From an uncultured Chlorobiaceae bacterium (lineage in GTDB: Bacteria > Bacteroidota > Chlorobiia > Chlorobiales > Chlorobiaceae): a stretch of DNA of 61,430 bases. How positions within the stretch are numbered: position 1 is the stretch's first letter; each line of letters begins with the position of its first letter. The stretch is from assembly GCA_903822595.1 (NCBI GenBank), contig CAIJPS010000102.1, forward strand, positions 1 through 61,430, given 5' to 3'. Made by a program: the position numbers and the translations under genes. This document shows, piece by piece, positions 7,914 to 24,669 of the stretch. The notes beneath the pieces were generated by a model. That model made no database searches. It was not told where the DNA came from and saw nothing but the letters and a program-made list of their open reading frames with translations.

Positions 7914-8387
7914 ATGAAAAAGCATCCTTTCAAAACGATCGGAATTACTCTTTTTCTTGCCGGGCGCTATCTCTTTGCCCTCTTTTTTCTCTATGGCTTC
8001 TGGCACAAGCTGGTAAAGGGGTGGCTTTGGAGCGACAAGATGCATAACTATTTCGTAGAGCGTCTCCACGCTCCCCCGCAACTGAACGACTTTCAGGCAC
8101 TCTACCTCGACCAGTTCGCCATACCTGTAGCCATGCCGATAGCATGGATCGTCACCATAGGGGAATTGATCATCGGAGTATGCCTTGCTTTGGGTCTTTC
8201 CGTCCGGGCCAATGCCGCCTTTGCGCTGTTTATGGTGCTGAATTTCGCAGCAGGAGGGTTCTACAATCTCACCCTCCCCCCCTTCATGATTTTTTCGGTG
8301 CTCATGATGATTTTCCCTTCAGGCCACTGGCTCGGGCTCGACAAACAACTTAACCGCAAATACCCGGATTCACTCTGGTTCAAGTGA
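7914..8387 (+). CDS. DoxX-like membrane protein
   Basis: 157 residues with about four membrane segments (roughly 10-30, 75-95, 98-115, 120-138), arranged as in DoxX/DoxD family proteins. The N-terminus has GRYLFALFFLYGFWHKL and the middle has AWIVTIGELIIGVCLALG, matching the family pattern of a glycine-rich helix with a buried acidic residue. DoxX members act in quinone-linked redox or membrane-stress functions, but this subgroup has no settled role. The 3' end overlaps the convergent aroQ gene by 18 bp. Confidence 0.7.
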   Translation: MKKHPFKTIGITLFLAGRYLFALFFLYGFWHKLVKGWLWSDKMHNYFVERLHAPPQLNDFQALYLDQFAIPVAMPIAWIVTIGELIIGVCLALGLSVRANAAFALFMVLNFAAGGFYNLTLPPFMIFSVLMMIFPSGHWLGLDKQLNRKYPDSLWFK

Positions 8388-8886: not shown

Positions 8887-10377
8887 TTACAGGATATACT
8901 GGCTGAGATCGCGGTCTGCAACCACGTGGTTCAGCTTCTCCTTAACCATGGTTTCATCAATCTCGACATGTTCGTCAGAGAAATTTTCGGGAATATTGAA
9001 CATCAGCTCCTCAAGAAGATTGGTCATGATGGTATGCAGACGCCTTGCCCCAATATTCTCAACACTCTCATTGACCCTTGCCGCAATTTTCGCAATCTCT
9101 CGAATGGCACCGTCACTGAAGGTCAAATCAACCCCTTCGGTAGCAAGAAGTGCTGAATACTGCTTGATAAGGGCATTATCCGGCTGTGTGAGAATCAGAT
9201 AAAAATCCTCTTCTGTAAGGCTTTTAAGCTCCACCCGGATCGGAAACCGTCCCTGAAGCTCGGGAATCAGATCTGAAGGCTTGGCAACATGAAAGGCACC
9301 GGAAGCAATAAAGAGTACATGGTCGGTCTTCACCATACCGTGTTTGGTCGCAACGTTGGAGCCTTCAACAATCGGCAGAAGATCGCGCTGCACACCCTCC
9401 CGGCTCACATCAGGTCCCTTGCCACCTGCTCCTGAAGATGGAGAGGCAATTTTATCAATTTCATCAATAAAAACAATTCCGGACTGTTCAACCTTGTTGA
9501 TAGCCTCCTTGATAACACTATCCATATCGATAAGCTTCTGTACCTCTTCCTGCTCAAGAAGCTTGCGGGCTTCAGCAATTGAGACCCTTCTTTTTTTGCG
9601 CTTCCGGGGCAGTCCGCTCATAAGGTCCTGCATAATTCCCCCGATCTCTTCCATCTGTCCAAGAGGGCCGAAAACCTGCATCATCCCGCCGGGAGTATCA
9701 CCGGAGAGGTCCATCTCAATCTGACGATCCTCCAGCTTTCCGTTGCGAAGACGCTCCAGCATTTTCCGGCGACTTCGCCGATTAACCTCAAGAGATTTGT
9801 CATGTTCATCAGCAGATGGAGCCTCAGGCGCACCATCCTCACCAGAAACATCATCATCATCATCTGAATTGCGTGAAGATGCTACAGGAGGAAGAAGGAT
9901 ATCAAGAAGACGTTCTTCAACAAGCAGGACAGCCTTTTCACGAACCTCCTCTGAGCGCTCGCTTCTCACCATAGCCACAGACTGATCGACAAGATCACGG
10001 ATCATCGACTCCACATCGCGACCAACATAGCCCACTTCAGTAAATTTCGATGCCTCAACCTTGACAAAGGGAGCTCTGGCGAGCTTTGCAAGCCTTCGGG
10101 CAATTTCGGTTTTTCCAACCCCTGTCGGGCCGATCATAATAATATTGTTGGGCATGATCTCATCACGGAGATCATCACTCACATGCTGACGGCGAAGTCT
10201 GTTGCGCAAAGCTATGGCAACAGATTTTTTCGCATCTTTTTGACCAATAATATATTTGTCGAGGAGCGAAACAATCTGGTTTGGAGTCAGATTACTGGGC
10301 GCAATAGAACTTACGCTACCGCTCCTGGCTTCGGGCAAAGCGAAAACACCCCTCTCACTGTTCGTAGTCGTTTCCAT
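8887..10377 (-). CDS. hslU: ATP-dependent protease ATPase subunit HslU
   Basis: AAA+ unfoldase of the HslUV (ClpYQ) protease; its hexamer feeds unfolded substrates to the HslV chamber. Seen are [22 protein letters not shown] at the N-terminus, Walker [12 protein letters not shown], the pore-loop region [20 protein letters not shown], an insertion (I) domain with an acidic low-complexity stretch ([12 protein letters not shown], about 180), Walker [12 protein letters not shown], and the sensor regions near GRFPIRVEL and ENIGARRLH. The C-terminal tail should insert into HslV. ATG 10377 ([10 protein letters not shown]) is preferred over a longer TTG or GTG start. The gene is 72 bp downstream of hslV and co-directional. 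Confidence 0.95.
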
Positions 10378-10449
10378 GCAATAAACTTGTAGATTACAGA
10401 AAAAGCTTTGGGTCACCAACCCTGAAGGTATACGGCATACCCAGAGCGC

Positions 10450-10998
10450 TCAGACCTCTTCAACAACAATATGATCGTTCGTGTAAATACAGATATCAGC
10501 CGCTATCTTCAAACTTTCCAGCACAATATCCTTTGCATGGAGCGTTGAGTGTTTCATGAGGGAACGCGCAGCCGCCAGAGCGTACATGCTACCGCTGCCA
10601 ATGGCGACAATACCATCCTCCGGCTCTATCACATCTCCGGTTCCGGAGATAATCAGTGCCTTGTCGTTGCTGACAATGGCAAGCATAGCCTCAAGACGCC
10701 GAAGATATTTGTCAGTCCTCCAGTCTCTGGCAAGTTCAACCGCCGCACGATCAAGCTTTCCATTATAGGACTCAAGCTTTTCCTCAAACCGGTCGAGTAA
10801 AGTCACCGCATCCGCCGTTGCCCCCGCAAAACCTGCAACAAGCTTTCCGTGATACAATCTCCGGATTTTCCTGGTCGAATGCTTGATGACCGTATTGCCG
10901 AGTGTCATCTGTCCATCACTTCCAAGAGCAGCCTTGCCATCCCTTATAACACCGATGACCGTCGTTGAACGGATCACTGGCCTTTGGTTATTCTTCAT
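10450..10998 (-). CDS. hslV: ATP-dependent protease peptidase subunit HslV
   Basis: Threonine peptidase that forms the double-hexamer chamber of HslUV. The mature N-terminus is [10 protein letters not shown], with catalytic Thr at residue 12 after removal of a short propeptide ([11 protein letters not shown]). Also present are [31 protein letters not shown] and the [16 protein letters not shown] segment close to the active site. ATG 10998 is used; a TTG lies one codon upstream. The gene begins directly after the rpoN stop codon, so the two are probably co-translated. Length of about 182 residues fits the family. Confidence 0.95.
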
Positions 10999-11001
10999 CA
11001 A

Positions 11002-12456
11002 TCAAAATATTTTTTTTCTTAATCTGGCTACCGGAATCTGCATTTGTTCCCGATATTTTGCAACTGTTCTTCGAGCTATATGTACTCCCCTTTTCATAAG
11101 CATCTCTGTTATACTGTCATCACTCTGGGGATTGGCAGAATCCTCCTCCCTGATCATATCAGCAATGTGCTGACGAATAACCTTGCTCGACAGATCCTCG
11201 CCATCACCTGTAGAGAGCCCTCCGCTGAAAAAATATTTGAGTTCAAAAACGCCGAAACGACTCTGTAAATATTTACCATTTACTGCCCGACTGATGGTCG
11301 ATATATCGAGACCGGTATCAGCCGCAATAGTTTTCATGCCAAGCGGAACCTCATAGCCGGGACCCGAAACAAAAAAGCCATATTGCCGCTTCATCAGCGC
11401 CTCAATAACCTTGAGCAACGTCTGACGTCGTGTCTCAATGGCACTCGTAAATTCATTGGCCCGCTGAATATTCTGGCGTATAAACTTCTTTTCCTCTTTT
11501 GGCCCTTTCCTGTTTTTAAGAAGTTCCTGATAGCGGTCAGAAACCCTGACAGAAAGAGCGCTTCTGTCATTGAGCACCGCAGTCAGCTCGCCATTTTCGT
11601 AGCTCACCACAAAATCAGGCGTGATATAATAGCCGCCCTCATCCTGAAAAATACCGGGATGAGGATCAAGCCGGATAATAGCTGAAACAGCCGCTTCAAC
11701 ACTCTCCCTGGTCGTTGCAAGCTTTTTCAGTAACAGTTCAAATCGTCGGTGCAGGAAATCGTCAAAATAATCGCGAAGAATCCTTGTTGCAGTATCATAG
11801 GTCCTTGATTCGTAACGCTCCATACCGGCCTGCAACTGCACAAGAAACCTTTCACGCAAATCCCTGACAGCAACACCAGGAGGATCAAGAAACTGGATTT
11901 TACGCACAACAGCCTTCACCTCGCTCTCGCTGACTGCAAGACCCTCAAAGTGCAGACTATCAACAATCACATGACACTCTTCGGCAAAATAACCGTCACC
12001 ATCAAGATTACCAAGAACCTCAATAGCTATCATCACCTCTCGCTCCCCGATCTCTTCATGAAGGCCCAGTTGCTTCAGAAGCATATCATGAAAACTGTCA
12101 TGCTGAACAGCCTGAAAAAACCGCTCCTTTGAGCCACTTTCATGGGCAAAATTCAGCCTTCCTTCAGTATATTCACCGGCAACCGGCACTTCAGAGCGCT
12201 GCTCTCTGAGAGAACTTTTACTGAAGCGATCAACGGCATCAAACATATCATCACCATCCAGGCGCTCGTTCTCAACAGCAATATCACCGGCTGTATCCTT
12301 GCGCTCCTCAACCAGTTCAAGCAGCGGGTTTTCCTGTAACTCATCATAAATCCGCTGTTCAAGATTCAACAGGGGAAGCTGAAGAAGCTGACTGCTTAAA
12401 ATCTGCTGCGCAGAAAGCTGTAGCGATTGGCGCTGTTGAAGTTTAATGTCAGCCAT
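11002..12456 (-). CDS. rpoN: RNA polymerase sigma-54 factor
   Basis: Sigma-54 directs polymerase to -24/-12 promoters that need an AAA+ activator. The glutamine- and leucine-rich region I is clear (LQQRQSLQLSAQQILSSQL), followed by an acidic region II, the core-binding domain, a helix-turn-helix segment (GLDISTISRAVNGKYLQ), and the RpoN box ARRTVAKYRE near the C-terminus that reads the -24 element. Length of about 484 is normal. ATG 12456 overlaps the end of the DUF3109 gene in ATGGCTGA, suggesting coupling. Its partner in this window is the NtrC-type activator at 43881, and a matching promoter lies at 45376. Confidence 0.95.
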   Translation of the reverse strand: MADIKLQQRQSLQLSAQQILSSQLLQLPLLNLEQRIYDELQENPLLELVEERKDTAGDIAVENERLDGDDMFDAVDRFSKSSLREQRSEVPVAGEYTEGRLNFAHESGSKERFFQAVQHDSFHDMLLKQLGLHEEIGEREVMIAIEVLGNLDGDGYFAEECHVIVDSLHFEGLAVSESEVKAVVRKIQFLDPPGVAVRDLRERFLVQLQAGMERYESRTYDTATRILRDYFDDFLHRRFELLLKKLATTRESVEAAVSAIIRLDPHPGIFQDEGGYYITPDFVVSYENGELTAVLNDRSALSVRVSDRYQELLKNRKGPKEEKKFIRQNIQRANEFTSAIETRRQTLLKVIEALMKRQYGFFVSGPGYEVPLGMKTIAADTGLDISTISRAVNGKYLQSRFGVFELKYFFSGGLSTGDGEDLSSKVIRQHIADMIREEDSANPQSDDSITEMLMKRGVHIARRTVAKYREQMQIPVARLRKKIF

Positions 12457-13027
12457 GACGCGGGGGGGATGAATCGACAAATGCTTTCAGGCTCACTATC
12501 CAGTCAACACCATACAATGACTCAAGAGCAAGATGAACATAATCAATAAGTTGTACCTTGCACCCTCCGCCCGCTTTCCTAGCAGAGCGACACATAGAGT
12601 GCTGTTCATAGACAAGATAGTCCAAACCAAACTTTTTTCTTACCCTTATTGGAAACAATCTGCAGGAGAGAGGCTTGTCAAAACCGAGGATGCCCTCACG
12701 AAATGCAATTTCAATGACACAAAAGGTTATGCCGTCACGAACACAGGTAAAAACACACTCACGATTATCAATAGTTCTGCTATACTGCCGTCCCTGATAA
12801 AGCTCAACCGGACCATGCCTGCGAAGATACTTCATATTTTTTTCTGGAAGCATCCTCAGCAGCTTTTCCGGTAACTGGAGCAACTGGTCTGCTTCAGTAT
12901 CGGATAACGGAGCGCCAAGCTCCCCCTCAACACAGCACTTTCCCCTGCACTCATGAAGATCACATAAAAAAAAAGCCTTCAAAACCTCCTTGTCAACAAG
13001 CACATCACCTATTGAAACCAGCGACAT
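12449..13027 (-). CDS. DUF3109 cysteine-cluster protein
   Basis: 192 residues with a cysteine pattern of the YkgJ/DUF3109 type: FLCDLHECRGKCCVEGELG near the N-terminus, then CVFTCVRDG, FCVIE, LSCRLFPIRV and a late CRSARKAGGGC. Such clusters are thought to bind zinc or an iron-sulphur centre; the biochemical role is unknown. It is the first gene of the minus-strand run DUF3109-rpoN-hslV-hslU and overlaps rpoN by 8 bp. The ATG at 13027 has no strong ribosome site. No membrane segment or signal peptide is visible, so it is probably cytoplasmic. Confidence 0.8.
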   Translation of the reverse strand: MSLVSIGDVLVDKEVLKAFFLCDLHECRGKCCVEGELGAPLSDTEADQLLQLPEKLLRMLPEKNMKYLRRHGPVELYQGRQYSRTIDNRECVFTCVRDGITFCVIEIAFREGILGFDKPLSCRLFPIRVRKKFGLDYLVYEQHSMCRSARKAGGGCKVQLIDYVHLALESLYGVDWIVSLKAFVDSSPPRHG

Positions 13028-13224
13028 AACGAACTATCCCCATGATAAATTGATAACCTCCCGATACTCCCCTGCTATATACAAACAACTTCCGTACCAC
13101 TGTTTTGCAACTCATCGCTTTTCAGATTTGCTGCTTCGATGATTTTTTCATAGCTATGTACAGCTCACTTTTAGAGCTCGACGATCACCCCTGAGGGGAA
13201 CATACACAACAAAGCCCTATCACC

Positions 13225-14112
13225 ATGCTCATTATCGACGGAAAAAAGGTCTCCCTCGACCTGAAAAACGAACTGAAAGCCAGTGTTGAAGCCTGCCAGG
13301 CCACCACCGGAAAAGTCCCCGGACTGACCGTTATCATTGTCGGCCACGATCCGGCATCGCAGGTTTATGTACGCAATAAAGCCAAAACATGCAAGGAGAT
13401 CGGTATGATTTCTACGGTGATTGAAATGGCTGCCGACACCACCGAAAAAGAACTGATCGACATCATTCACAAACTGAACAACGACCCTGCTGTCCACGGA
13501 ATCCTTGTCCAACAGCCGCTTCCGAAACAGATTGATGAATTTGCCGTCACGCTTGCCATCGATCCAGCAAAGGATGTCGATGGATTTCATCCCGAAAACC
13601 TCGGGCGTCTGGTTATGGGCCACCTCGACAAATGTTTTGTCAGTTGCACCCCTTACGGCATTCTTGAGCTGCTCGGACGCTACAATATTGAAACAAGAGG
13701 AAAACACTGTGTCGTGGTCGGACGCAGCAACATTGTCGGCAAACCAATGGCCAACCTGATGCTGCAGAAGCTTGATGCCACCAACTGCACCGTTACTATC
13801 TGCCACTCCGCCACCAAAAACATCCCCTTCTACACCCAGCAGGCCGACATTCTCATCGCGGCTATCGGCAAAGCGGGATTCATTACCGCTGACATGGTCA
13901 AACCGGGAGCTGTCGTCATCGACGTCGGCATCAACCGTATCGAAGATTCATCCACAAAAAGCGGCTACCGTCTCGTAGGCGATGTGGATTTCGACGCTGT
14001 TTCATCCGTTGCCTCAGCCATGACCCCGGTACCCGGAGGAGTCGGGCCCATGACCATCGCGATGCTCCTGAAAAACACCCTCCAGTCATTCCAGCGTATC
14101 AACGGACTCTAA
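13225..14112 (+). CDS. folD: FolD bifunctional folate enzyme
   Basis: Methylenetetrahydrofolate dehydrogenase (NADP+)/cyclohydrolase, which interconverts one-carbon folates for purine, formyl-methionine and serine metabolism. Substrate-site motifs are YVRNKAKTCKEIGM (catalytic Lys in the YxxxK arrangement) and GILVQQPLPKQI. The NADP-binding domain has VVVGRSNIVGKPMANLML. The C-terminal signature is TPVPGGVGPMTIAMLL. 295 residues is standard. The gene follows an intergenic stretch of about 200 bp with no clear structure, and radA begins 6 bp after its stop, so the two are probably co-transcribed. Confidence 0.96.
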   Translation: MLIIDGKKVSLDLKNELKASVEACQATTGKVPGLTVIIVGHDPASQVYVRNKAKTCKEIGMISTVIEMAADTTEKELIDIIHKLNNDPAVHGILVQQPLPKQIDEFAVTLAIDPAKDVDGFHPENLGRLVMGHLDKCFVSCTPYGILELLGRYNIETRGKHCVVVGRSNIVGKPMANLMLQKLDATNCTVTICHSATKNIPFYTQQADILIAAIGKAGFITADMVKPGAVVIDVGINRIEDSSTKSGYRLVGDVDFDAVSSVASAMTPVPGGVGPMTIAMLLKNTLQSFQRINGL

Positions 14113-14118
14113 AAGAGG

Positions 14119-15492
14119 ATGGCCAAATCCTCTACCAGATACGTCTGCTCGAACTGCGGAGCCATCTCCCTTAAATATCAGGGAAAATGCTTTGAATGCC
14201 AGAGCTGGGGCACTCTTCAGGAGACCCGCATTGAGCCCGAAGCGAAAAAACAGGGGTCAGGCTCTATGGGAGGTGTTGCGGTCATACAGAACCTGCATGA
14301 TGCCGTCCCCTCAGAATTTTTCCGTATCATGACCGGTATCGGTGAACTCGACCGGGTGCTCGGAGGAGGGCTTATGCAGGGATCAGCCGTTCTGGTCGGA
14401 GGAGAGCCGGGTATCGGTAAATCAACCCTCATGCTACAGCTCGCGGCACGCCTTGCTCCTGCAAAAGTGCTTTATATCTCCGGCGAAGAGTCGCCAAACC
14501 AGATCCGCGAACGGGCTCAGCGACTCTCCATTCAGGCAAAAAACCTCTGGCTTGCCGCGGAGGTGAGCCTTGAGCGAGTCCTTGATCTCATTGAACGCGA
14601 AAAGCCCGCGCTGGTCATTATCGACTCCATTCAAACCGTTCATTCGGATGAATACCAGAGTTCTGCCGGTACCATCACCCAGATCCGGGAGTGCGCTGCC
14701 ATGTTGATCCGGGCAGCCAAGCAGCAGAACGTGATCCTGATGATTATCGGCCATATTACCAAGGAGGGTGCGCTTGCCGGGCCCAAAGCCCTTGAGCACA
14801 TGGTCGATACCGTCCTGCAGTTTGAAGGTGAAGGCTACCAGCGTTACCGCATTATCCGCTCAGTCAAAAACCGCTTTGGCTCCACCAATGAGATCGGCGT
14901 CTTCCGCATGGATGAAACCGGCCTTGAAGAGGTCAGCAACCCCTCAGAATTCTTTATTTCCGGACGAAGAACCGATGTACCAGGAAACTCGATCCTTGCC
15001 GCCATTGAAGGCACAAGGGCCCTTCTTGTCGAAGTTCAGGCGCTGGTATCAAAAACCAACTACTCCATGCCGCAGCGCATCAGCACGGGGTTCGACCTGA
15101 AACGAATGTCGATCATTCTTGCCGTCCTGCAAAACCGGCTCCATATCGAAACCTGGGGGCAGGATGTTTTTGTAAAAATAGCCGGAGGGCTCAAACTTGC
15201 TGAGCCCGCAGCAGACCTCGCCATTGCTGCGGCCATCGCCTCAGGGCTCATGAACCGTCCGGTTGATGCTGCAACCGTCTGTTGCGGTGAGATCGGGCTT
15301 GCCGGGGAACTCAGAGCCATCAGCGACAGCGAACGGCGCATCAGGGAGGCCGCCCATCTCGGCTTCAAGCGCATTGTGCTACCCGAAGCCAATACCCGCG
15401 AACTGAAGCCATCACTACTCAATCTTCCCATAACCATCTTCGGATGCAAAACACTCTACGAGGCACTTCAGGAGCTTGATGTCAGTGGATAG
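14119..15492 (+). CDS. radA: DNA repair protein RadA
   Basis: 457-residue RecA-like branch-migration helicase used in recombinational repair. The N-terminal four-cysteine zinc finger is CSNCGAISLKYQGKCFEC; Walker A is GGEPGIGKSTLM; the RadA-specific KNRFGSTNEIGVF motif lies in the middle. The C-terminal Lon-like domain (about 290-455) contains DVFVKIAGGLKLAEPAADLA and GEIGLAGELR. All domains are present and the length is normal. It follows folD by 6 bp. Confidence 0.96.
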   Translation: MAKSSTRYVCSNCGAISLKYQGKCFECQSWGTLQETRIEPEAKKQGSGSMGGVAVIQNLHDAVPSEFFRIMTGIGELDRVLGGGLMQGSAVLVGGEPGIGKSTLMLQLAARLAPAKVLYISGEESPNQIRERAQRLSIQAKNLWLAAEVSLERVLDLIEREKPALVIIDSIQTVHSDEYQSSAGTITQIRECAAMLIRAAKQQNVILMIIGHITKEGALAGPKALEHMVDTVLQFEGEGYQRYRIIRSVKNRFGSTNEIGVFRMDETGLEEVSNPSEFFISGRRTDVPGNSILAAIEGTRALLVEVQALVSKTNYSMPQRISTGFDLKRMSIILAVLQNRLHIETWGQDVFVKIAGGLKLAEPAADLAIAAAIASGLMNRPVDAATVCCGEIGLAGELRAISDSERRIREAAHLGFKRIVLPEANTRELKPSLLNLPITIFGCKTLYEALQELDVSG

Positions 15493-15587
15493 TAAACAAG
15501 GGATAATAGAGAGTTGATAATCGAATGAATTGGTTACATTTTACTGTAGAGTTTCAGGAATAACCAAATTATAAAGAGGGGGTGATA

Positions 15588-15926
15588 ATGCATATCCTTA
15601 TCCAGTGGCTGATCAATGCCATCGCAGTCTATGCTACCGCGCATATACTCGACGGCATTCACCTGAAAAGTTTTGGAGCAGCAGTTCTTGTAGCACTGGT
15701 GCTCGGCCTCGTTAACGCTGTCGTGCGGCCTGTGCTGGTCTTTTTTTCCTTTCCTTTTATCATTGTTACACTCGGGCTTTTCCTGCTCGTCATCAACGCC
15801 CTTCTTCTGCAGTTTGCAGCCTCACTTGTTGGTGGCTTCTCTATCGACAGCTTCGGCTGGGCTATCGCAGGATCAATTGTCATCAGTGCGATATCCTGGA
15901 TTTTGAGTTCTCTTTTCCATTTCTGA
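15588..15926 (+). CDS. Phage holin family 4-like (DUF360-type) membrane protein
   Basis: About 112 residues and almost entirely hydrophobic, with four predicted membrane helices. The pattern LGLVNAVVRPVLVFFSFPF and LGLFLLVINALLLQFAASLV is characteristic of the phage-holin-4/DUF360 family, chromosomal inner-membrane proteins of unknown role that are not linked to a prophage. The start was taken at ATG 15588 because AGAGGGGG lies six bases upstream; a GTG at 15582 would leave no room for it. No lysis gene is nearby. It follows radA by about 95 bp. Confidence 0.85.
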   Translation: MHILIQWLINAIAVYATAHILDGIHLKSFGAAVLVALVLGLVNAVVRPVLVFFSFPFIIVTLGLFLLVINALLLQFAASLVGGFSIDSFGWAIAGSIVISAISWILSSLFHF

Positions 15927-16042
15927 ACTGGAACACATGGATCCTTATGGCTACGCTGGCACTCGTAACAGTCATGCTGCATATAAGACGGTGCATGTTT
16001 ATGGGCAGAATCGGAGGTTACGGGCAGACAGCTCAAGAATTT

Positions 16043-16438
16043 TCATCCCGTCATACTTCTCAATACCAATGGACCATAAAACCATGTTTTTATAGCTGTC
16101 TGTCTCCATCCTTGCCTTTCCAGAGCCCTGAAGCCATCCTCAGCGAAGAGTTTCTGAACAACCTCTTCCTCTTTGGCCGTAAAGCTGCTGAAAAATTCAA
16201 ACTGATGACCACAACCTTTTTTCGTAATCAAATCGATGACCTGAAACGTTGCAAATACCGGCAACCCGTTTTCATTCTTCAGGTCAAGATAAGGAACGCA
16301 TTCAGACTCAAACGTAAGGTATCCTGACTGCCAGATATTTTTAATAGAGAATGTCAGTACGCCCCCATCAACCTCCTTTTCAAAAAAATTCTGGTCAACA
16401 ATACCTTTTTTTTGTTCAGTACTTAATTTGTAAATCAT
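16043..16438 (-). CDS. Uncharacterised 131-residue protein
   Basis: I do not recognise this protein. It starts MIYKLSTEQKKGIVDQNFF at ATG 16438, with a clear GGAGG five bases upstream, which is better than most genes here. It has no signal peptide or membrane helix and looks like a small soluble alpha/beta protein. Notable pieces are KKGCGHQFEFFSSFTAKEEE, with a Cys-Gly-His, and the C-terminal WRQTAIKTWFYGPLVLRSMTG. It lies between a convergent holin-like gene and bchU (same strand, upstream), separated from bchU by about 240 bp that include a hairpin. The ribosome site and composition support a real gene. Confidence 0.65.
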   Translation of the reverse strand: MIYKLSTEQKKGIVDQNFFEKEVDGGVLTFSIKNIWQSGYLTFESECVPYLDLKNENGLPVFATFQVIDLITKKGCGHQFEFFSSFTAKEEEVVQKLFAEDGFRALERQGWRQTAIKTWFYGPLVLRSMTG

Positions 16439-16534
16439 AATATCCTCCAACTTTTTCAGTTGCAGAGAGCGAAAAACAAAAACATCAATCACTTGAACAC
16501 ATCAAAGCCCTCTCCAGTCAGGGTGGATCATATT

Positions 16535-16565
16535 CGCTCATCTCCAGTAAAGCCAAAGATGAGCG
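16535..16565. repeat. Perfect 9-bp hairpin between bchU and the unknown gene
   Basis: CGCTCATCT and AGATGAGCG are exact reverse complements separated by 13 bases. No T-run follows on either strand, so it is not a standard intrinsic terminator. It could be a stabilising 3' hairpin of the bchU transcript or an operator for the downstream gene. Confidence 0.5.
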
Positions 16566-16676
16566 CTCCTGTACATTTCGCTGTCAAATTAACGTAACTC
16601 AAAACATTTTCATCGGCCACGCGGATAAAAATTATACCATTATCCTTTTTTTGAAAATGAGTTGCAATAATTTTAC

Positions 16677-17696
16677 TTATGCCGCTTTTACAGCTTCACA
16701 GAAGAGGTGGCCATATTTTCTGACCGTACGAACATCCTGAAAACCGAGTGACTCAAGAATTTCCTTGTAGCTACTCTGCTGCTTGAAGCCGAGTACTGAA
16801 AACGGCATCCCGGCACCAAGGATATAGTGGCTCAGATAATCAAAGTTAGGGTTTTCCGGATCATCAATAATCATGTCGAGAATAAGCAACCTGCCACCTG
16901 GTGCAAGTGCTTCCCACGCTTTTCGGCAAAGCATGTCGGTCAACTGTTCATTTGCGGAATAGAGAATACGGCAGAACATGACGGCATCTGCTTCCGGGTA
17001 TGCATCCTTGTAGATATTCACGGCTGCGCCTCTCAGACGATCTTCGACTCCTTTTTCAAGAGCATTCTCATTGACGAGTTCAATAGCTCCCGGAAGGTTG
17101 AGAATGGTGGAGTCGAGCTGCGGATACTTTTTCAGAAGGGCTGCTGAAATATCGCCAATACCGCCACCAACATCCACAAGAGTTTTTGCTGTTGAAAGAT
17201 CAGCCTCTTCAAGCAGCAGCATAATAGCAAAATGGGCATTGCTGCGATGAATTTCTTCAAAATAGAGATTGTCTTCCCGTGTTACAGGAGGATAAGCCAC
17301 TTCCGCCTTGAAATTCACGTTTCCTCTGACGGCATCGGCTATCTTCAGGTAGAAATTGTCTGAAAGGGTTACCATGGCTTTTGCCAGAGGAATCATATAG
17401 AGGTTGGGATGTGCATGGTTCGGCAAAAACATTTTTTTCGCAAACGGGGTGAGGCTCCATTGCCCGTTCTTTTCTGCGGTAACCCCCATATGCCGCAGCG
17501 CCTCAAGCAGCATGACGAGCCGTGGAGGAATCGCACCAACACTGGCCGCAAGTGTTTCGAGATTTTTTGCCTCATCACCTATATGGGTAAACAGATCCAG
17601 TTCAAGAGCCGCCTTAAAACAGCCGCACTCGACAAGACCTTTAAAAATAAGTTCGTTTGCTCGGTGATGTTGCTTCAGTAGTTCGTGGGCGTCCAT
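16677..17696 (-). CDS. bchU: Bacteriochlorophyllide C-20 methyltransferase BchU
   Basis: SAM-dependent methyltransferase that adds the C-20 methyl group distinguishing bacteriochlorophylls c and e from d in chlorosomes. The 339 residues align along their length with what I recall of Chlorobaculum tepidum BchU: an N-terminal winged-helix dimerisation domain (HHRANELIFKGLVE), PPVTREDNLYFEEIHRSNA, SAM site VDVGGGIGD (177-182), and C-terminal NFDYLSHYILGAGMPFSVLG. Tyr246 and His290, reported to hold the pigment substrate, fall at exactly 246 and 290. The frame is intact, unlike strains that make bacteriochlorophyll d through bchU mutation. Its ATG is 63 bp after the radical SAM gene stop, so they may share a transcript. 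Confidence 0.95.
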   Translation of the reverse strand: MDAHELLKQHHRANELIFKGLVECGCFKAALELDLFTHIGDEAKNLETLAASVGAIPPRLVMLLEALRHMGVTAEKNGQWSLTPFAKKMFLPNHAHPNLYMIPLAKAMVTLSDNFYLKIADAVRGNVNFKAEVAYPPVTREDNLYFEEIHRSNAHFAIMLLLEEADLSTAKTLVDVGGGIGDISAALLKKYPQLDSTILNLPGAIELVNENALEKGVEDRLRGAAVNIYKDAYPEADAVMFCRILYSANEQLTDMLCRKAWEALAPGGRLLILDMIIDDPENPNFDYLSHYILGAGMPFSVLGFKQQSSYKEILESLGFQDVRTVRKYGHLFCEAVKAA

Positions 17697-17759
17697 GATA
17701 AAAGTAGTGCTGAATAGTTAAAGAAAGTTGACAATGGTACGAAAATGAACAAGAAGTGG

Positions 17760-19214
17760 TTAACGCAAAAAATTATTGAAAAATAAAATCCGGTTTTTCA
17801 CCAAAAAGTCTACAGGATTGAGGCGCGATTTCTCCTTGATGTTATGGTGTTGTTCAAACGTGTCGAGTTGCTCGCGTATGTTTTTTCTGAAGGCAAGACT
17901 GGTGACAAGATTGAGCAATTTATAGGGATTCCTTCTTACCCGGTTGGCAATATTTTTCAGGGAGTATGCCTTGTAATAGCTGGTCATGAATTTATGCTGG
18001 AATGCTACAGGGTTGTATCGGTCTGATCGGATAACCAGATTCATGGCATTGTATTTTTCCCAGTCTTCGTCAGTGATCCATCCTTTGCTCTTGTATTCCC
18101 AGTACATCGTTGTTCCAGGATAGGGAGTAATAATCTGAAATATCGGCATGAAGACATTGTTTTTCCCTACAAACCGAACAAGGTCATCCATGTCCTCGAA
18201 ACTGTCGAGTTCAGGATTGACCAGAAAATTGCCCTGAACATTGAGACCTGCCTGACGGCACTCCTCAATGAGCCGCGAAAATTGATCGGCAGAATTAACA
18301 TGTCCTTTATTGTAGGCTTCAAGGGTGCTCTGTTTTATGGATTCAAATCCGACAAGCACCATGATGCATCCGGCCTCTACAAGCCGCCTTACCGTCTCCT
18401 TGTCTTCAAGGAAATTGATGCTAAAAAAAACGCTGAAGTTAATATTGCACTCCTTGATCAGCTCAAGCGACTCCCAGAGACGTTTTTTGCTCACGCCAAG
18501 GTTTTCGTCACAGAGCATGAACCAGGGCTTTGAGGATTTCCTGTTTGGTTTAAAAAAAACTTTTTTGGCGGTCTCGATCTGCTTTTTCAGCTCTTCAGGT
18601 TTCTGTGCGCGATAGAGTTTTCCGGTAAAGTTGGGAGTGACGCAAAATGAACATTCAAAAGGGCAGCCTCGGGTGATATAGAGAGGAATGGATTTTGTTC
18701 CATCAACTTTTCCCCGTTTTGAGGCTTTGGCAATTCGTTCATAATCAAGGCCGACAACCTCCTTGACGGGTGGAAACTCCTTTGAGTCATAGAGCGGCTT
18801 CAGGCGGTTGAAAGCAACATCTTCGAGCAAGGTTAACCAAAGGTTCTCTGCTTCGCCGCAGACAAGCGTATCGGCATGGACTTTTGCCTCTTCAGTATTG
18901 AACGAAACATGCAATCCGCCAAGGATCACTTTTGTACCTTTTTTACGAAACCGGTCAGCAATCTCATAACCTCTTGTGGCATCTATGGTTCGTGACGTTA
19001 TTCCAACAAAATCGTAATCACCGTCATAATTGACCACATCGCCAAAATGTTCATCAACAATTTCAATATGGTGCTGCTCGGGAGTAAGGCTCACAAGTAC
19101 ACCTAACGCCATGTTAAATAATGGCTTCTGGTTTGATTTCGAATCTTTTTTCCCCTTCGGGGCTACGAGGAGAAGCTTGAGTGGCGTAATGCGCTGAGGT
19201 TCTGGATTGCTCAT
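17760..19214 (-). CDS. B12-binding radical SAM protein, BchE/BchQ/BchR-like
   Basis: 484 residues. An N-terminal cobalamin-binding-type Rossmann domain (about 12-135: [45 protein letters not shown]) precedes a radical SAM core with [12 protein letters not shown], the CxxxCxxC that holds a 4Fe-4S cluster. This class includes BchE and the chlorosome-pigment methylases BchQ (C-8 side chain) and BchR (C-12). Placement directly upstream of bchU on the same strand supports a role in antenna-pigment tailoring, probably radical methylation. Which of BchQ, BchR or another paralogue it is cannot be fixed from motifs. The basic C-terminal region ([18 protein letters not shown]) is shared by such family members. 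Confidence 0.8.
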
Positions 19215-19278
19215 GCTTGCATGCTGATTTTATCGGTTCTGATCAAATTATTGAGCATCAAGGTATTGTGAAAATCGA

Positions 19279-20502
19279 TCAAGTAAGCACGTTATTTTTC
19301 TGTTTTGTCATTCGGCTCGGTTCATGATGATTCAGATCAAAGGGAATATGCAGCCATTTGTCCTTGAAGACGGCATTCCCCGGCTCAAGCCCGGTCAGGC
19401 TGATCGGAAGCGTGATGATCTTGCGCTGGTTGCCGATATGCACGTAAAGCTCATCACCGGTTACCCAAATATCGATGTCAACAGGGTTGGCAAACATAAG
19501 CTTCAACTGTACCTCATAGATATCACCAGTACGAACAAACTTTATCGGTGGCTCATCATACATCATTTTAGAAGGATCACTGTCGCCATACATGTCTCTG
19601 GCAAAAGTCTCAAGTGCCTTCAGACCGACAATCTCTTTTTCATACATCCTGAGTTTTTTTACCGGAAGAGGAGAAAAACCCTCTTCGATCTCTCGAAGGT
19701 ATTTCTGCTGAATCGTTTTCCAATGCTCAAGATAACCACTGTCCTCTTTTGTGTCGAGCAGACGGTTGACCAGCACCATATCTACCTTAAAACCGTACAA
19801 GTTCAGATAGGTCAGGGCACGCATGGTCTCCTTGATGGACATCTTCTCCGCATTCATGACCAGACGAACAGTCGATTGGTTATTATCCGTGAGAATCTCA
19901 CGAATACCTTCAAGTTCATCAAAAATCTGGTCAACCGAATCAAGGGCGTCGTCGGGGGGAATATATTGCGCGATTTTATCAGACATCTTTGAAAGCGGCT
20001 TGCTGAGGGGTCTGACAATATATTTTGTGACATTTTTTACCGCTTTCATCCCCCAGGCAAGGGTATCAGGAAGGGAAAGGAGCCGCAGTGTCTCGCCTGT
20101 CGGAGCCGTATCGAGGACAAGAACATCATAACGTCCAGAGGCTTTATAACGCTTTATTCTCAAGAGTGAAAAAAGCTCTTCCATCCCAGGAAGGATGGTC
20201 ATTTCATCAGCAACAACTCCCGAAACGCCCTGGGCCCTGAATATCCCGGTATAGAATTTTTGTACCGCCTGCCAGTTCTGCTTAAGATCGACATAAGGAT
20301 TGACTTCTATAGCATAAAGATTCTCCTTGATCTTTGTCGGTTCAGAACCAAGAGAGAGATTAAACGAATCCGACAGGCTGTGTGCAGGATCAGTTGAAAG
20401 AACAAGAGTGCGATAGCCTAACTCCGACAAACGAACTGCAGTCGCAGCAGAGACACTGGTTTTGCCCACCCCGCCTTTACCTGTGAAAGTAAGAATACGC
20501 AT
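19279..20502 (-). CDS. ArsA/GET3-family ATPase with HSP20-like C-terminus
   Basis: 407 residues beginning MRILTFTGKGGVGKTSVSAA, the deviant P-loop of ArsA/GET3 ATPases, then LSTDPAHSLSDSF (switch I) and DVLVLDTAPTGETLRLL (switch II). The C-terminal 80 residues (YEVQLKLMFANPVDIDIWV, ending in a beta-rich segment) form the alpha-crystallin-like domain often fused to bacterial ArsA homologues. No arsB, arsD or arsR is present, so arsenite export is not implied; handling of hydrophobic or tail-anchored proteins is an alternative suggested by GET3. ATG 20502 gives the canonical start; a longer start would add 11 residues. It is upstream of the radical SAM gene on the same strand. Confidence 0.88.
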   Translation of the reverse strand: MRILTFTGKGGVGKTSVSAATAVRLSELGYRTLVLSTDPAHSLSDSFNLSLGSEPTKIKENLYAIEVNPYVDLKQNWQAVQKFYTGIFRAQGVSGVVADEMTILPGMEELFSLLRIKRYKASGRYDVLVLDTAPTGETLRLLSLPDTLAWGMKAVKNVTKYIVRPLSKPLSKMSDKIAQYIPPDDALDSVDQIFDELEGIREILTDNNQSTVRLVMNAEKMSIKETMRALTYLNLYGFKVDMVLVNRLLDTKEDSGYLEHWKTIQQKYLREIEEGFSPLPVKKLRMYEKEIVGLKALETFARDMYGDSDPSKMMYDEPPIKFVRTGDIYEVQLKLMFANPVDIDIWVTGDELYVHIGNQRKIITLPISLTGLEPGNAVFKDKWLHIPFDLNHHEPSRMTKQKNNVLT

Positions 20503-21098
20503 GAACAAAGGTTTTGCCTTTATTAACGAATACAAGAAAATTAAAACCCCACAAAGAGGGAAACAGGATCAGCTTAACTTCCGATAGAGGGGCCGCTGAA
20601 GAATCGAAAATGAAACACTGTAGAAAAACAATAGCCGATAAAGCATCGCCTGAGTGGAGTGGAGAGTAAATACAAATCCAGACCTCGAAGTTCAGAATTA
20701 CCACATCCAAAACACCGACACAACGTGAAATTCTTTTGCTTAAGTTAAATCTAAAATCAGATTCTCTAAATAAAAAGCCCCCATCTCTACGCTTGAATCC
20801 AATATTCTACGAAAAACATTATTCAGATGTAATTATATCGTATAACGCCACAGGAAATAGTTTTTCGGTATTTCAGATTATTGCCTGAAAAAGTTAACCG
20901 CACAATTTGGATGATCTTTATGGTATAAATTACAGAGCAATTTATACTCATAAACCATTTCGTATCAGACATCAGCGGATATTTTGTAACGGCTTGTGGC
21001 GGCAGGAAAACAGCCTTTTTATTTCCGTTTTATATATTCGGCCTCCCTGATTATCTTCTCCCTTTCACTCTCTGAAATAACCGGGTAACCATGTACCT
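20503..21098. other. AT-rich divergent intergenic region
   Basis: Nearly 600 bp between the divergently read arsA-like and bchC-type genes. It should hold promoters for both directions. I see no convincing coding sequence; the 77-codon minus-strand frame ending at 20477 lacks motifs and overlaps the arsA start. Two palindromes are visible: AATCT-N6-AGATT at about 20747-20762 and the longer repeat at 20923-20947. Confidence 0.6.
20923..20947. promoter_or_regulatory. Perfect inverted repeat upstream of bchC
   Basis: GTATAAATT and AATTTATAC form perfect 9-bp arms around a 7-base spacer, about 150 bp before the bchC-type start codon. The symmetry suits a dimeric repressor or activator. The regulator is unknown, and AT-rich DNA raises the chance of coincidence. 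Confidence 0.45.
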
Positions 21099-22061
21099 AT
21101 GACCATGAAGGGGGAGACTCAAGCGATTGTCTTGCGAAAAGCCAACAAACTTAAACTGCAAAGCGCTGCATATCATGCCAGTGAGCCCGGCGATGTTCTG
21201 GTAAAAACGATTGCGAGCACCATAACACCAGGTTTTGACCGGCTTCTTTTAACCAACAAGGCGGTATCAAGCAGGGTTTTCAAGTATCCCATCATGCCAG
21301 GAAGTGAGGCTATTGGCCAGGTACTTGAAACCGGTCAGGGGGTAACTGACCTGCATCCAGGGAATTTTGTCTATGCCTTCAGGGGTGACCGTTGGGATGG
21401 AATCGAATCCTACGCTGGCTGCCATGCGGAAATCATCCCGACATCGTGCAAGAACCTTTTTAAGCTTGGTCGACCTCCTATCCACCGCGATCTGCTCATC
21501 GGACTGCTTGCCTATGCGGTCAGTGCTGTGGAAAAAGTACCTCTTGATGCTTCATCAAGAATTCTTGTACTCGGTCTCGGCTCTGTCGGCCTTATGGTTG
21601 CGGAGTACCTTTACTCTCTCGGTTACCGTCACATCGATGCGGTTGAAACCTTCAGTATCAGGGGACAGCTCTCCCATGCTGAACATATCGCTCTCGATAT
21701 TGAGGATTTCACGCAAGAATTTAACAATAACTATGATCTCATCATTGAGACAACGGGAAGAATTCTTCTTGTTGAAAAAGCGGTGCGCCTGATGAAAAAG
21801 CAGGCAATCGTCTTGCTTATGGGCAATTATGAGGTAATGGCCTACGACTACCGCCTGATACAACATAAGGAACCGGTAATTATCTGTTCCGGCATTACAA
21901 CCATGGCCCACCTGAAGGAGGCTTTCGCTGTGCTTGAGGATGGAAGGCTTGAGACTGAAAAGTTTTTTACCAATGTCTTTCCTGTCAAAGAGTACGAGCT
22001 GGCCTACCGAAGGGCTCTTGACAGCAAAGATTCCATCAAGACCGTGTTGAGCTGGCTCTAA
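21099..22061 (+). CDS. bchC: BchC-type bacteriochlorophyllide dehydrogenase
   Basis: 320-residue medium-chain dehydrogenase without the zinc-binding lobe of classical alcohol dehydrogenases. The N-terminal half has TPGFDRLLLTN and YPIMPGSEAIGQVLETGQG, like the BchC family; the nucleotide-binding motif is ILVLGLGSVGLMVAEYLYSLG (about 151-170). BchC oxidises the 3-hydroxyethyl group of bacteriochlorophyllide to the 3-acetyl of bacteriochlorophyll a, the baseplate and reaction-centre pigment. The nearby bchU and pigment-type radical SAM genes support the call. A second ATG at 21105 is equally possible. The ABC ATPase gene starts 20 bp after the stop. A general zinc-independent quinone-type dehydrogenase is the main alternative. 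Confidence 0.75.
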   Translation: MTMKGETQAIVLRKANKLKLQSAAYHASEPGDVLVKTIASTITPGFDRLLLTNKAVSSRVFKYPIMPGSEAIGQVLETGQGVTDLHPGNFVYAFRGDRWDGIESYAGCHAEIIPTSCKNLFKLGRPPIHRDLLIGLLAYAVSAVEKVPLDASSRILVLGLGSVGLMVAEYLYSLGYRHIDAVETFSIRGQLSHAEHIALDIEDFTQEFNNNYDLIIETTGRILLVEKAVRLMKKQAIVLLMGNYEVMAYDYRLIQHKEPVIICSGITTMAHLKEAFAVLEDGRLETEKFFTNVFPVKEYELAYRRALDSKDSIKTVLSWL

Positions 22062-22081
22062 ACACTGAAAATTTTTACACC

Positions 22082-23623
22082 ATGGGTGTTGCCGTTCGTT
22101 TGATCGGTATCTCAAAAAAGTTTGGAAGCTTTTCGGCGAACAGCAATATCTCCCTATCGGTGGAGGAGGGCACCATTCATGCGCTTGTCGGGGAGAATGG
22201 CGCTGGGAAAAGTACACTGACAAAAATTATATACGGGATTCACCAGCCTACTTCGGGCGAAATGATCATACAGGGTAAAGGTATCCGCTTCACCTCTCCC
22301 CGCGATGCTATCAATGCAGGCATTGGTATGGTTCATCAGCATTTTATGCTTATACCGGAGCTCACGGTAACCGAAAACATCATCCTCGGCAATGAACAGA
22401 GCAAACTTTTTCAGCACATCAGCCTGAAAAAATGCAAAGCACTGATCCTGAAAAATACCGAAGCCTACGGGCTGGCGCTTGACCCTGATGCCCTTGCAGG
22501 AAGCCTCAGCATCGGTGAGCAGCAACGAGTTGAAATTCTCAAGCTTCTTTTTCGTCATGCGACCATCATGATTTTTGATGAGCCGACCGCAGTGCTTTCC
22601 CCCTCTGAAACGGAACGGCTTTTTGCAACGCTCCGATCCCTTCGTGACAAGGGAAAAACCATCATTCTCATTACGCACAAACTTGACGAGGTGCTTGCCG
22701 TAGCCGACACGGTAAGCGTCATGAGAAGAGGCGAAATCGTCGGCACCATCCCGGCCTCTTCAGCAACAAAACCGGAACTTGCCCGAATGATGGTGGGGCG
22801 CAGCCTCCTTTTACGGGTCAACAACCCCTCACCTTCCCCTGGCGAAACCATCCTCAGTATCAACAAGCTCGGATTTCGCACAAAAAGAGGGGTGGAAAAA
22901 GTGCATGACCTCAGCCTGAACATCAGGGCGGGAGAAATCTACGGTATTGCCGGAGTTGAAGGAAACGGACAGAGTGAACTGCTGCAAGCTCTCTGGGGAC
23001 TTGCGCCCGAGGGAAGCATGATTTCCGGCAATGCCTTGCTCAAGGGCGACTCACTCATCGGCAAGAAACCAGCCGAAATAGCCCGCCTCGGCGTTTCTCA
23101 TATTCCTGAGAACCGCCTGCGTCATGCCGTTATCCCGGACTTCACCGTTTCAGAAAACCTTCTTTTCGGTCGACACAGGGAGAACTCCTTTCACCAGGGG
23201 ATCGGGTTTAATAACCGCATAGTTGACCACTATGCCGCAGCAATGATTGCTGACTATGCTATCAGGTGCAGCTCACCGAATCGCCAGCCGATCAGCACCC
23301 TCTCGGGAGGCAATCAACAAAAGGTCGTTCTTGCGCGGGAACTCAACCGTCCGAAAATATCCCTGCTTCTCCTTGCCCAGCCTACCCGAGGAGTTGATAT
23401 TGGCGCAATCGAGACGATCCATCAAAAGATTATCGAAACCCGCACAAGTGGAATAGCAATACTACTTCTCTCCTCTGAACTTGAAGAGATCATAGCACTT
23501 TCAACGAGAATCGGCTGCCTCTATAAGGGATCAATACGATACGAATTCAGTCAGGAAGAGGTCGAATTCAAAAGAAATTCGGAGCATGAGTTCCAAAAAG
23601 AGATCGGCATGTATATCACCTGA
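22082..23623 (+). CDS. ABC importer ATPase, nucleoside/BMP type (YufO-like)
   Basis: 513 residues with two fused ABC domains. The first has Walker A GENGAGKST, signature LSIGEQQRVEIL and Walker B TIMIFDEPTAV. The second has a degenerate Walker A (GVEGNGQSE, Lys replaced by Gln), signature LSGGNQQKVVLARE and a Walker B-like LLLLAQPTRGVD. This pairing is typical of sugar and nucleoside importers of the RbsA/YufO group, where only one site needs full activity. The Q-loop segment GMVHQHFMLIPELTVTENI is characteristic of the purine-nucleoside branch. The permease gene begins 14 bp later. Confidence 0.88.
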   Translation: MGVAVRLIGISKKFGSFSANSNISLSVEEGTIHALVGENGAGKSTLTKIIYGIHQPTSGEMIIQGKGIRFTSPRDAINAGIGMVHQHFMLIPELTVTENIILGNEQSKLFQHISLKKCKALILKNTEAYGLALDPDALAGSLSIGEQQRVEILKLLFRHATIMIFDEPTAVLSPSETERLFATLRSLRDKGKTIILITHKLDEVLAVADTVSVMRRGEIVGTIPASSATKPELARMMVGRSLLLRVNNPSPSPGETILSINKLGFRTKRGVEKVHDLSLNIRAGEIYGIAGVEGNGQSELLQALWGLAPEGSMISGNALLKGDSLIGKKPAEIARLGVSHIPENRLRHAVIPDFTVSENLLFGRHRENSFHQGIGFNNRIVDHYAAAMIADYAIRCSSPNRQPISTLSGGNQQKVVLARELNRPKISLLLLAQPTRGVDIGAIETIHQKIIETRTSGIAILLLSSELEEIIALSTRIGCLYKGSIRYEFSQEEVEFKRNSEHEFQKEIGMYIT

Positions 23624-23637
23624 ACAACAACCCTCCC

Positions 23638-24669
23638 ATGAGCCGAAAAAACCTGAGACTTTTTATACCCATCCTCTCTATCCTCTCTGCTCTCGTTGTC
23701 AGTAGTCTGATTATTTTCATGGCAGGGAGAGATCCGGTGCTGATTTTCCAGAAAATGTTTCTGGCGACGTTTGGCTCACCCTATGGAACCGGGCAGGTGC
23801 TCTTCAGAATGACTACGCTTGTGTTTGTAGCTCTTGCCGTTGCCCTTCCCTTCCATGTGAGACTCTTCAATATCGGCGCTGAAGGCCAGCTTCAGATGGG
23901 TGCATTTGCTGCAGCAATTACCGGTGCCATACTTCCGGCCTGGATGCCCTCGATTACAGCCATCTCCCTTTGCGTCACGGCGGCAATGGCTGCAGGAGCC
24001 TTCTGGGCACTTCTTGCCGGGGTGCTCAAAGTACGCTTCGGTGTCAATGAGGTCATTGCAACCATTATGCTGAATTTCATTGCACAGGGCATTACCGGAT
24101 ACCTGCTGACTTGGCATTTTGCCCTACCCTCCACCGTTCATACTGCTCCGATCATTGACGCCACCACCATACCGGCGTTGTACACCGTCACAGGGTGGTT
24201 TGCCAACTCGCCGGCAAACCTCAGCACATTCCTTGCCGCTGGAGTTGCACTGCTCTTCCAGGTTATCCTGTTTCAATCACGGTTTGGTTATGAAATGCGA
24301 GCTGCCGGTCTGCAACCTGAAGCCGCCCGGTATGGAGGAATCAATGCAGGAATGCACACTCTAACCGCAATGGGCCTCGGTGGGGCCGCAGCCGGCCTGG
24401 GAGCGGCAAACATTGTTCTTGGCTACAAACACTATTATGAGGCGGGAATGAGCGGAGGAATCGGTTTTACGGGCATCGCTGTCGCACTCCTTGCCGGTGC
24501 TCACCCCTTGTGGATACTTCTCTCAGCACTCTTCTTTGGGGTACTGGAATACGGGGGACTGACGGTCAATGCCTACATTCCAAAAGATATCTTCATGATC
24601 ATCGAAGCTCTCACGATCCTGCTCATCATTGCCTTCAGCGCTCTTGGAAGGCGATTGGAACACGAATGA
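23638..24669 (+). CDS. ABC importer permease, nucleoside type (YufP-like)
   Basis: 343 residues with about nine membrane helices of the BPD_transp_2 family. LFNIGAEGQLQMGAFAAAI is the hallmark segment of the YufP-type permease in BMP/nucleoside importers, and GVNEVIATIMLNFIAQGI and GYEMRAAGLQPEAARYGGIN (coupling loop) follow. These importers normally need a second permease (YufQ type) and a BMP-family lipoprotein. Neither follows here: the next gene is a DUF2934 protein. The importer must use unlinked partners or is incomplete. Confidence 0.88.
   Translation: MSRKNLRLFIPILSILSALVVSSLIIFMAGRDPVLIFQKMFLATFGSPYGTGQVLFRMTTLVFVALAVALPFHVRLFNIGAEGQLQMGAFAAAITGAILPAWMPSITAISLCVTAAMAAGAFWALLAGVLKVRFGVNEVIATIMLNFIAQGITGYLLTWHFALPSTVHTAPIIDATTIPALYTVTGWFANSPANLSTFLAAGVALLFQVILFQSRFGYEMRAAGLQPEAARYGGINAGMHTLTAMGLGGAAAGLGAANIVLGYKHYYEAGMSGGIGFTGIAVALLAGAHPLWILLSALFFGVLEYGGLTVNAYIPKDIFMIIEALTILLIIAFSALGRRLEHE

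Follow-up and report, generated by a model that had tools for sequence, protein, structure and literature searches.

In the green sulfur bacterium C. tepidum, the methylase acting at C-8(2) is BchQ. Get3d ATPases, conserved in photosynthetic bacteria and plants, are the subject of a study reportedly by Barlow and others. According to passages of PMC10248533, tail-anchored protein binding and ATPase activity have been shown for AtGet3d and NosGet3d, and the Get3d of green sulfur bacteria has already been placed in the Get3d clade. In Chloroflexus aurantiacus, bchU is located near chlorosome protein genes, in a bchU-bchK-csm cluster (as stated in part of PMC3150298). Here, we describe a locus in which get3d, a gene for a cobalamin-type radical S-adenosylmethionine (SAM) protein of the BchQ type and bchU lie together. 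The stretch of DNA analyzed, hereafter the window, comprises 61,430 nt and lies on contig C102 of a Chlorobiaceae genome of 3.04 Mb in 109 contigs (G000).

The best explanation of the trio as a whole, to which we assign a probability of roughly 0.7, is a cassette that serves the synthesis and assembly of chlorosome pigment. Its BchQ protein, of the clade termed A below, would add methyl groups at C-8(2) of bacteriochlorophyllide, using cobalamin and SAM; BchU would then methylate C-20, yielding the bacteriochlorophyll (BChl) c series; and Get3d, an ATPase whose client chamber is hydrophobic, might supply the growing chlorosome with small hydrophobic proteins of its envelope (or with pigment).

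Organization and recurrence of the cassette

The three genes are arranged head to tail on the minus strand, in the order get3d, radical SAM gene, bchU, separated by 64 and 63 bp (Table 1). The survey of relatives covered 98 genomes from the order, of which 80 carry bchU. The matches used were 97 of the radical SAM protein (at least 56% identity), 82 of bchU, 120 of bchR and the best 137 of get3d, with get3d fragments and copies under about 62% identity left out of the counts. Among the matches listed, get3d, clade A bchQ and bchU occurred in window order and on one strand in 29 of the 80 genomes with bchU, and get3d was found beside bchU without the triad in 9 more; three others of these 80 had bchQ with bchU and no get3d among the listed matches. 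In 34/98 genomes, again among the matches listed, a get3d copy and bchQ shared a strand and lay no more than 600 bp apart, and bchR lay within 6 kb of bchQ in seven genomes.

At least six chromosomal contexts of the cassette were observed among relatives: BchC-like/radA (the window, L039, L073 and L164), flavodoxin-PCP_red/AmgK (L043), LolC-like permease (L041, L191 and L193), UbiA-type prenyltransferase (C. ferrooxidans, L055), stomatin-like (L056 and L192) and FKBP/oxidoreductase (L058 and L061), where the labels LolC, stomatin and FKBP reflect our own reading of the sequences rather than family searches. The trio is a compact, transcription-unit-like cassette that recurs at several chromosomal sites. 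Variants of it were also seen. A near relative (G079, L039 3774-10609) carries a tandem cassette get3d-bchU-get3d-bchQ-bchU, and elsewhere cobalamin-type radical SAM genes of two other clades lie near bchU, downstream of it, encoding proteins of 608-619 aa or about 500-550 aa, one of the latter tested and found to carry DUF4070 (L044:10625, L046:10620, L050:10698; L058:15099, L060:13028, L061:12255).

The history of the site could be followed by comparison with C. ferrooxidans. In blastn, window positions 10001-15916 aligned with locus L189 of that species up to its position 8259, and window positions 21098-24644 from its position 8209; the BchC-like gene stands there directly next to radA, with no cassette between. 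Since C. ferrooxidans has the flanking block without these genes, get3d, bchQ and bchU represent an insertion: about 5.2 kb (15927-21098) were inserted at a site that is almost empty in C. ferrooxidans. In C. tepidum (L187), the BchC-like/transporter block is likewise present and the cassette is missing from the site. The ends of 15927-21098 show no long repeats, direct or inverted, and promoter-like matches were at chance level (9 found, 9.0 expected). The GC fraction is 0.42-0.46 in the insertion and up to 0.55 in the flanks, which is not by itself proof of foreign origin.

A 102-bp remnant of the 3' end of the radical SAM gene, 82% identical, persists on another contig of the same genome (C33, L155:6750-6851), between the gene for a flavodoxin/PCP_red protein and an AmgK-like kinase gene. 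The same site holds a clade A gene alone in L154 and L146, or the whole cassette in L043. The most economical account has the cassette form or settle at a C33-type site and move to its present one later. The protein encoded beside the remnant is a fusion of a flavodoxin domain with PF08369, the C-terminal domain of the 57 kD subunit of protochlorophyllide reductase (L155:5277-5900; also L154:8706-9332), and the fusion gene repeatedly adjoins bchQ or bchR.

The original prediction had treated positions 16677-22061, up to and including a bchC-type gene, as one block in two divergent arms. The divergent arrangement is real and is shared by L039, L073, L102 and L164, which could speak for a single functional pigment block; yet the plus-strand arm is conserved flank of the insertion, in C. 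ferrooxidans radA and the bchC-like gene are neighbours with no cassette between them, and the cassette has other neighbours in other genomes. As an ancestral unit the block is refuted, and as a functional one we regard it as highly improbable. Neither is its gene at 21099-22061, which heads the plus-strand transporter block, a true bchC: the product scored 130 bits against the TIGR01202 equivalog cut-off of 291.25, and the true BchC of the genome (436.5 bits) is encoded on another contig (C28:9712-10653), adjoining a bchF. The same pairing occurs in C. tepidum, where the true BchC scores 497 bits and the paralogue 119. This paralogue upstream of the ABC transporter is conserved in Chlorobium and C. 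tepidum (window 21099-22061; L187:5949-6905) and belongs to the old flank.

BchU and a probable second methylase

The assignment of bchU, already made in the original prediction, is certain on the match of its product to the BchU equivalog TIGR02716, 476.5 bits with a cut-off of 276.1. The C. tepidum gene is presumably CT0028, a number with which the gene order in its genome (G020) agrees.

As for the 484-residue radical SAM protein, its radical SAM core was recognized by PF04055 (49.5 bits, cut-off 29.5), and the CxxxCxxC motif is present as CPFECSFC at residues 184-191. Its predicted fold (predicted local distance difference test, pLDDT, 82.5) resembles that of cobalamin-dependent radical SAM enzymes along almost its entire length, with AprD4 (Z 28.8, root-mean-square deviation (rmsd) 2.9, 396 residues aligned), MgmA (Z 25.4, rmsd 3.5, 370 aligned), TsrM (Z 22.9, rmsd 3.4, 401 aligned) and OxsB (Z 22.9, rmsd 4.7, 433 aligned) as structural matches. 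In a tree of 71 sequences, the protein grouped with that of C. tepidum gene G020:1683528-1684907, to which it is 69% identical, with BchR and BchE in clades of their own. In a tree of 37 BchQ-type sequences, the window protein fell into clade A (support 99/97) and the C. tepidum protein into clade B (100/100), the two being joined with 100/100 and Chloroherpeton- and Thermochlorobacter-type sequences lying outside; 13 positions are fixed differently between A and B over the sequences compared. The C. tepidum gene adjoins a BchF-family gene at G020:1682804. We take G020 to be C. tepidum TLS, the gene to be bchQ (CT1777) and its neighbour to be bchV (CT1776), an identification that rests partly on gene position; the numbers assumed for bchR (CT1320) and bchE (CT1959) also fit the gene order.

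Judged by both trees, the 484-residue protein is a BchQ paralogue: its clade A is sister to that of C. tepidum BchQ with good support, and C-8(2) methylation is its most likely activity as well. This agrees with the original prediction, which had placed it in the BchE/BchQ/BchR class and had allowed for either a known methylase or a further paralogue acting on pigment side chains. The phylogeny proposed there as a check gave no clustering with non-pigment radical SAM proteins, but the nearest outgroup consists of three copies from a Thermodesulfobacteriota metagenome-assembled genome (MAG). BchE was rejected as an identity (TIGR02026 69.9 bits, cut-off 481.35; the BchE of the genome, 760.5 bits, is at C36:46035-47522), as was BchR, which forms a separate clade with 27-30% identity and is encoded on contig C91.

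The MAG in question (PL23b_bin.63, G098) encodes three BchQ-type proteins of 44-51% identity, one of which is the sister of the BchR clade, together with two hydratases of the BchF family, on contigs without visible bch clusters (L098, L099, L128, L160-L162, L180-L184). A search for CsmA found none in it, and BchL gave nothing above cut-off, although C. tepidum gave none in the same search either, which makes the BchL result unreliable. These copies would serve either tetrapyrrole modification outside phototrophs or an unrecognized pigment maker. Another BchQ-type gene (58% identity), in a MAG named Chloroflexi L.E.CH.39_1 (L094), groups with Thermochlorobacter-type sequences and is possibly mis-binned Chlorobiales DNA.

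When clades were assigned by a cut of 70% identity to the window protein rather than by a tree of every sequence, 48 of 86 Chlorobiaceae genomes had A, 22 had B, 4 had both and 12 neither; among the 58 that are at least 95% complete, the corresponding numbers were 33, 17, 3 and 5. The two clades are thus seldom found together. As an alternative to the main reading, clade A might have a shifted activity, such as another degree of methylation (for instance a third methyl giving neopentyl) or another substrate (bacteriochlorophyllide e), and not do the job of clade B. Each clade is well supported, G001, G026 and G048 have both (with both open reading frames (ORFs) open in G001), and a second clade A gene is located on the other side of get3d, in tandem duplication, in G036, G040, G043, G045 and G076. 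However, the fixed differences number only 13, clade A is the sole bchQ in the 33 near-complete genomes mentioned, and in G026, C. luteolum CIII (the genome of L087), the A copy is broken and the B copy intact. A shifted activity is therefore unlikely, and C-8(2) methylation remains the preferred assignment. The broken gene of C. luteolum CIII (L154:7109-8520) is disrupted by a frame change or stop. A BChl e gene cluster (bciD/cruB/third bchF) was also considered for the window genome and set aside: it has two BchF-family genes, as does C. tepidum, and so looks green, bciD itself not having been searched for; G001 and C. phaeovibrioides BrKhr17 have three.

The ATPase and its link to chlorosome genes

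The product of the first cassette gene had been described as an ArsA-type ATPase without an obvious role. Two domains scored above cut-off in it, ArsA/Get3 (PF02374, 387.5 bits) and, at the C-terminus, ArsA_HSP20 (PF17886, 68.5 bits). ATG 20502, where relatives start, is a better start than TTG 20535 of the ORF 19279-20535. The protein has intact P-loop and switch I/II motifs and no cysteine, hence no CxxC zinc motif. Its model (pLDDT 68.8) matched NosGet3d over residues 1-391 (8egk_A, Z 22.7, rmsd 5.7, 335 aligned; 3igf_A, Z 22.6, rmsd 4.6, 316 aligned) and AtGet3d over residues 1-390 (8elf_A, Z 21.0, rmsd 5.3, 323 aligned). Only with Get3d entries did the structural alignment cover the full length; other Get3 structures stopped near residue 304 and one ArsA at 366. 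The protein scored 149.3 bits with the narrower model of cyanobacterial Get3d (NosAFP), NF050088, the cut-off of which is 325. By its domains, its fold and its lack of cysteine, the "ArsA" of the locus is an ATPase of the Get3d type that carries an alpha-crystallin domain at its C-terminus, and no arsenite pump. Cysteines are the means by which ArsA binds arsenite, and a pump ATPase is hardly credible for a cysteine-free protein with an alpha-crystallin domain that reached 123 bits with the arsenite-pump equivalog TIGR04291 (cut-off 650), even though it matches the ArsA family and homologues in green sulfur bacteria are annotated in this way (for C. tepidum in a passage of PMC11269200).

A role for this Get3d is suggested by further get3d copies, of which there are several per genome. 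A cluster get3d1-csmC-csmA-X-get3d2 is present in three genomes: that of the window (L157:7454-12503), C. tepidum (L198:4115-9792) and G090 (L196:3118-8412), a member of another family of the order with one extra small ORF before csmA. CsmC was recognized by PF11098 with 211 bits in L157 and 137.5 bits in L196. Based on 150 csm matches listed, in 80 genomes, a get3d copy lies within 1.5 kb of a csm gene in at least 60 of these 80, with csm downstream and on the same strand in at least 59. A bchR copy is 45-145 bp from a csm gene in at least 11 genomes, and clade A bchQ within about 700 bp of one in at least two. X of the cluster is conserved, with a length of 413-680 aa, and the two X proteins tested had no Pfam match.

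The position of these copies beside csmC and csmA would be explained if Get3d delivers envelope proteins to the chlorosome. Because relatives keep get3d beside genes of antenna proteins, and because it is movable together with bchQ and bchU, Get3d may help to build the light-harvesting antenna; the part that the original prediction had left without a role may thus serve chlorosome assembly. The stronger proposal, that green sulfur bacteria use Get3d as a dedicated chlorosome-assembly factor, an ATP-driven chaperone bringing CsmC, CsmA and their kin, or pigment, to the lipid monolayer, is put forward only tentatively. Our literature search returned nothing joining Get3 with the chlorosome, or csmA and csmC with an ATPase and the chlorosome; a link between Get3d and the chlorosome was not made in the portions of text returned for chlorosome and ArsA, and chlorosome, synteny, neighbour and gene cluster are unmentioned in the main text of PMC10248533.

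Alternatively, the cassette Get3d might be a passenger, copied recently from the csm-linked gene and carried along. It shares 86% identity with the csm-linked get3d product of its own genome, which, given the several get3d copies per genome, makes this a possibility to be taken seriously, if not one that we expect. Against it, get3d comes first and on the same strand in the 29 triads and 9 get3d-bchU pairs counted above among the matches listed, genera g1 and g2 included, and it has been kept at several chromosomal sites. In the get3d tree, in which many forks are weak, bchU linkage as a label needs four changes, which repeated independent coupling might account for.

Several observations weigh against this reading of the trio as a chlorosome pigment cassette. 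As for its spread, the full triad is missing, among the matches listed, in 51 of the 80 genomes with bchU, and bchQ is absent from 12/86 Chlorobiaceae genomes (5/58 near-complete ones) and so is dispensable; because three near-complete genomes retain both A and B, the two clades may not be equivalent. As for the methylase, the B12-binding domain PF02310 scored 26.6 bits, below its cut-off of 32.1, and the top structural match, AprD4, is a dehydratase, not a methylase. Moreover, the BchQ-family outgroup sits in the Thermodesulfobacteriota MAG where no CsmA was found, so that the deeper family appears not to be tied strictly to chlorosomes. As for the ATPase, bchU-linked get3d genes are close to those beside csm genes (about 85%) and, in a weakly supported tree, do not group into a single clade. 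With these points included, we maintain the cassette as the best explanation of the trio. If its Get3d does act in chlorosome assembly, the coupling to csmC-csmA and to the BChl c methylases would provide the first physiological client system for this photosynthesis-linked family; the company of csmC-csmA, bchU and bchQ makes it a candidate, open to direct testing in C. tepidum, an organism with genetics. The second BchQ clade and the movable cassette show green sulfur bacteria rearranging the genes that tune their antenna.

Remaining features and comparison with known systems

The positions of the cassette and its surroundings are given in Table 1. The 149-aa protein encoded downstream of bchU has homologues in loci of four near relatives (L039, L040, L073 and L095).

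Table 1. Cassette genes, insertion and flanking genes in the window
Feature	Position	Strand	Evidence
radA/sms, conserved left flank of insertion	14119..15492	+	TIGR00416 547.6 bits; collinear with C. ferrooxidans L189
Insertion carrying the cassette, 5.2 kb	15927..21098		blastn against C. ferrooxidans L189
149-aa protein without assigned family, inside insertion, downstream of bchU	16043..16492	-	no match in Pfam or NCBIfam profile searches
bchU, bacteriochlorophyllide d C-20 methyltransferase, last cassette gene	16677..17696	-	TIGR02716 476.5 bits
BchQ clade A, cobalamin-type radical SAM protein, 484 aa, probable C-8(2) methylase	17760..19214	-	tree, motif, fold
get3d-type ATPase, 407 aa, first cassette gene	19279..20502	-	PF02374 387.5 bits, PF17886 68.5 bits
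BchC paralogue, flank, outside cassette	21099..22061	+	TIGR01202 130 bits, cut-off 291.25
Sugar/nucleoside-type ABC transporter ATPase, conserved right flank	22082..23623	+	collinear with C. ferrooxidans L189; also in C. tepidum L187

Compared with known systems, the window BchU shows no difference from that of C. tepidum apart from the location of its gene. The radical SAM protein shares with C. tepidum BchQ the cobalamin-type family and, as a member of the sister clade, 69% identity, and the older clade A locus adjoins a gene of the BchF/BchV hydratase family as C. tepidum bchQ does; it differs in its separate, well-supported clade with 13 fixed differences and in the position of its gene between get3d and bchU. 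BchR and BchE are of the same superfamily but of different clades. The ATPase resembles NosGet3d and AtGet3d in its Get3/ArsA fold with C-terminal alpha-crystallin domain, the lack of CxxC and the full-length structural match, and differs from them, as listed, in its intact switch I and II motifs, its linkage to bch and csm genes and its score below the NF050088 cut-off. Finally, the bchU-bchK-csm cluster of Chloroflexus aurantiacus also has bchU in the company of chlorosome protein genes, but the part of PMC3150298 describing it names neither get3d nor bchQ.

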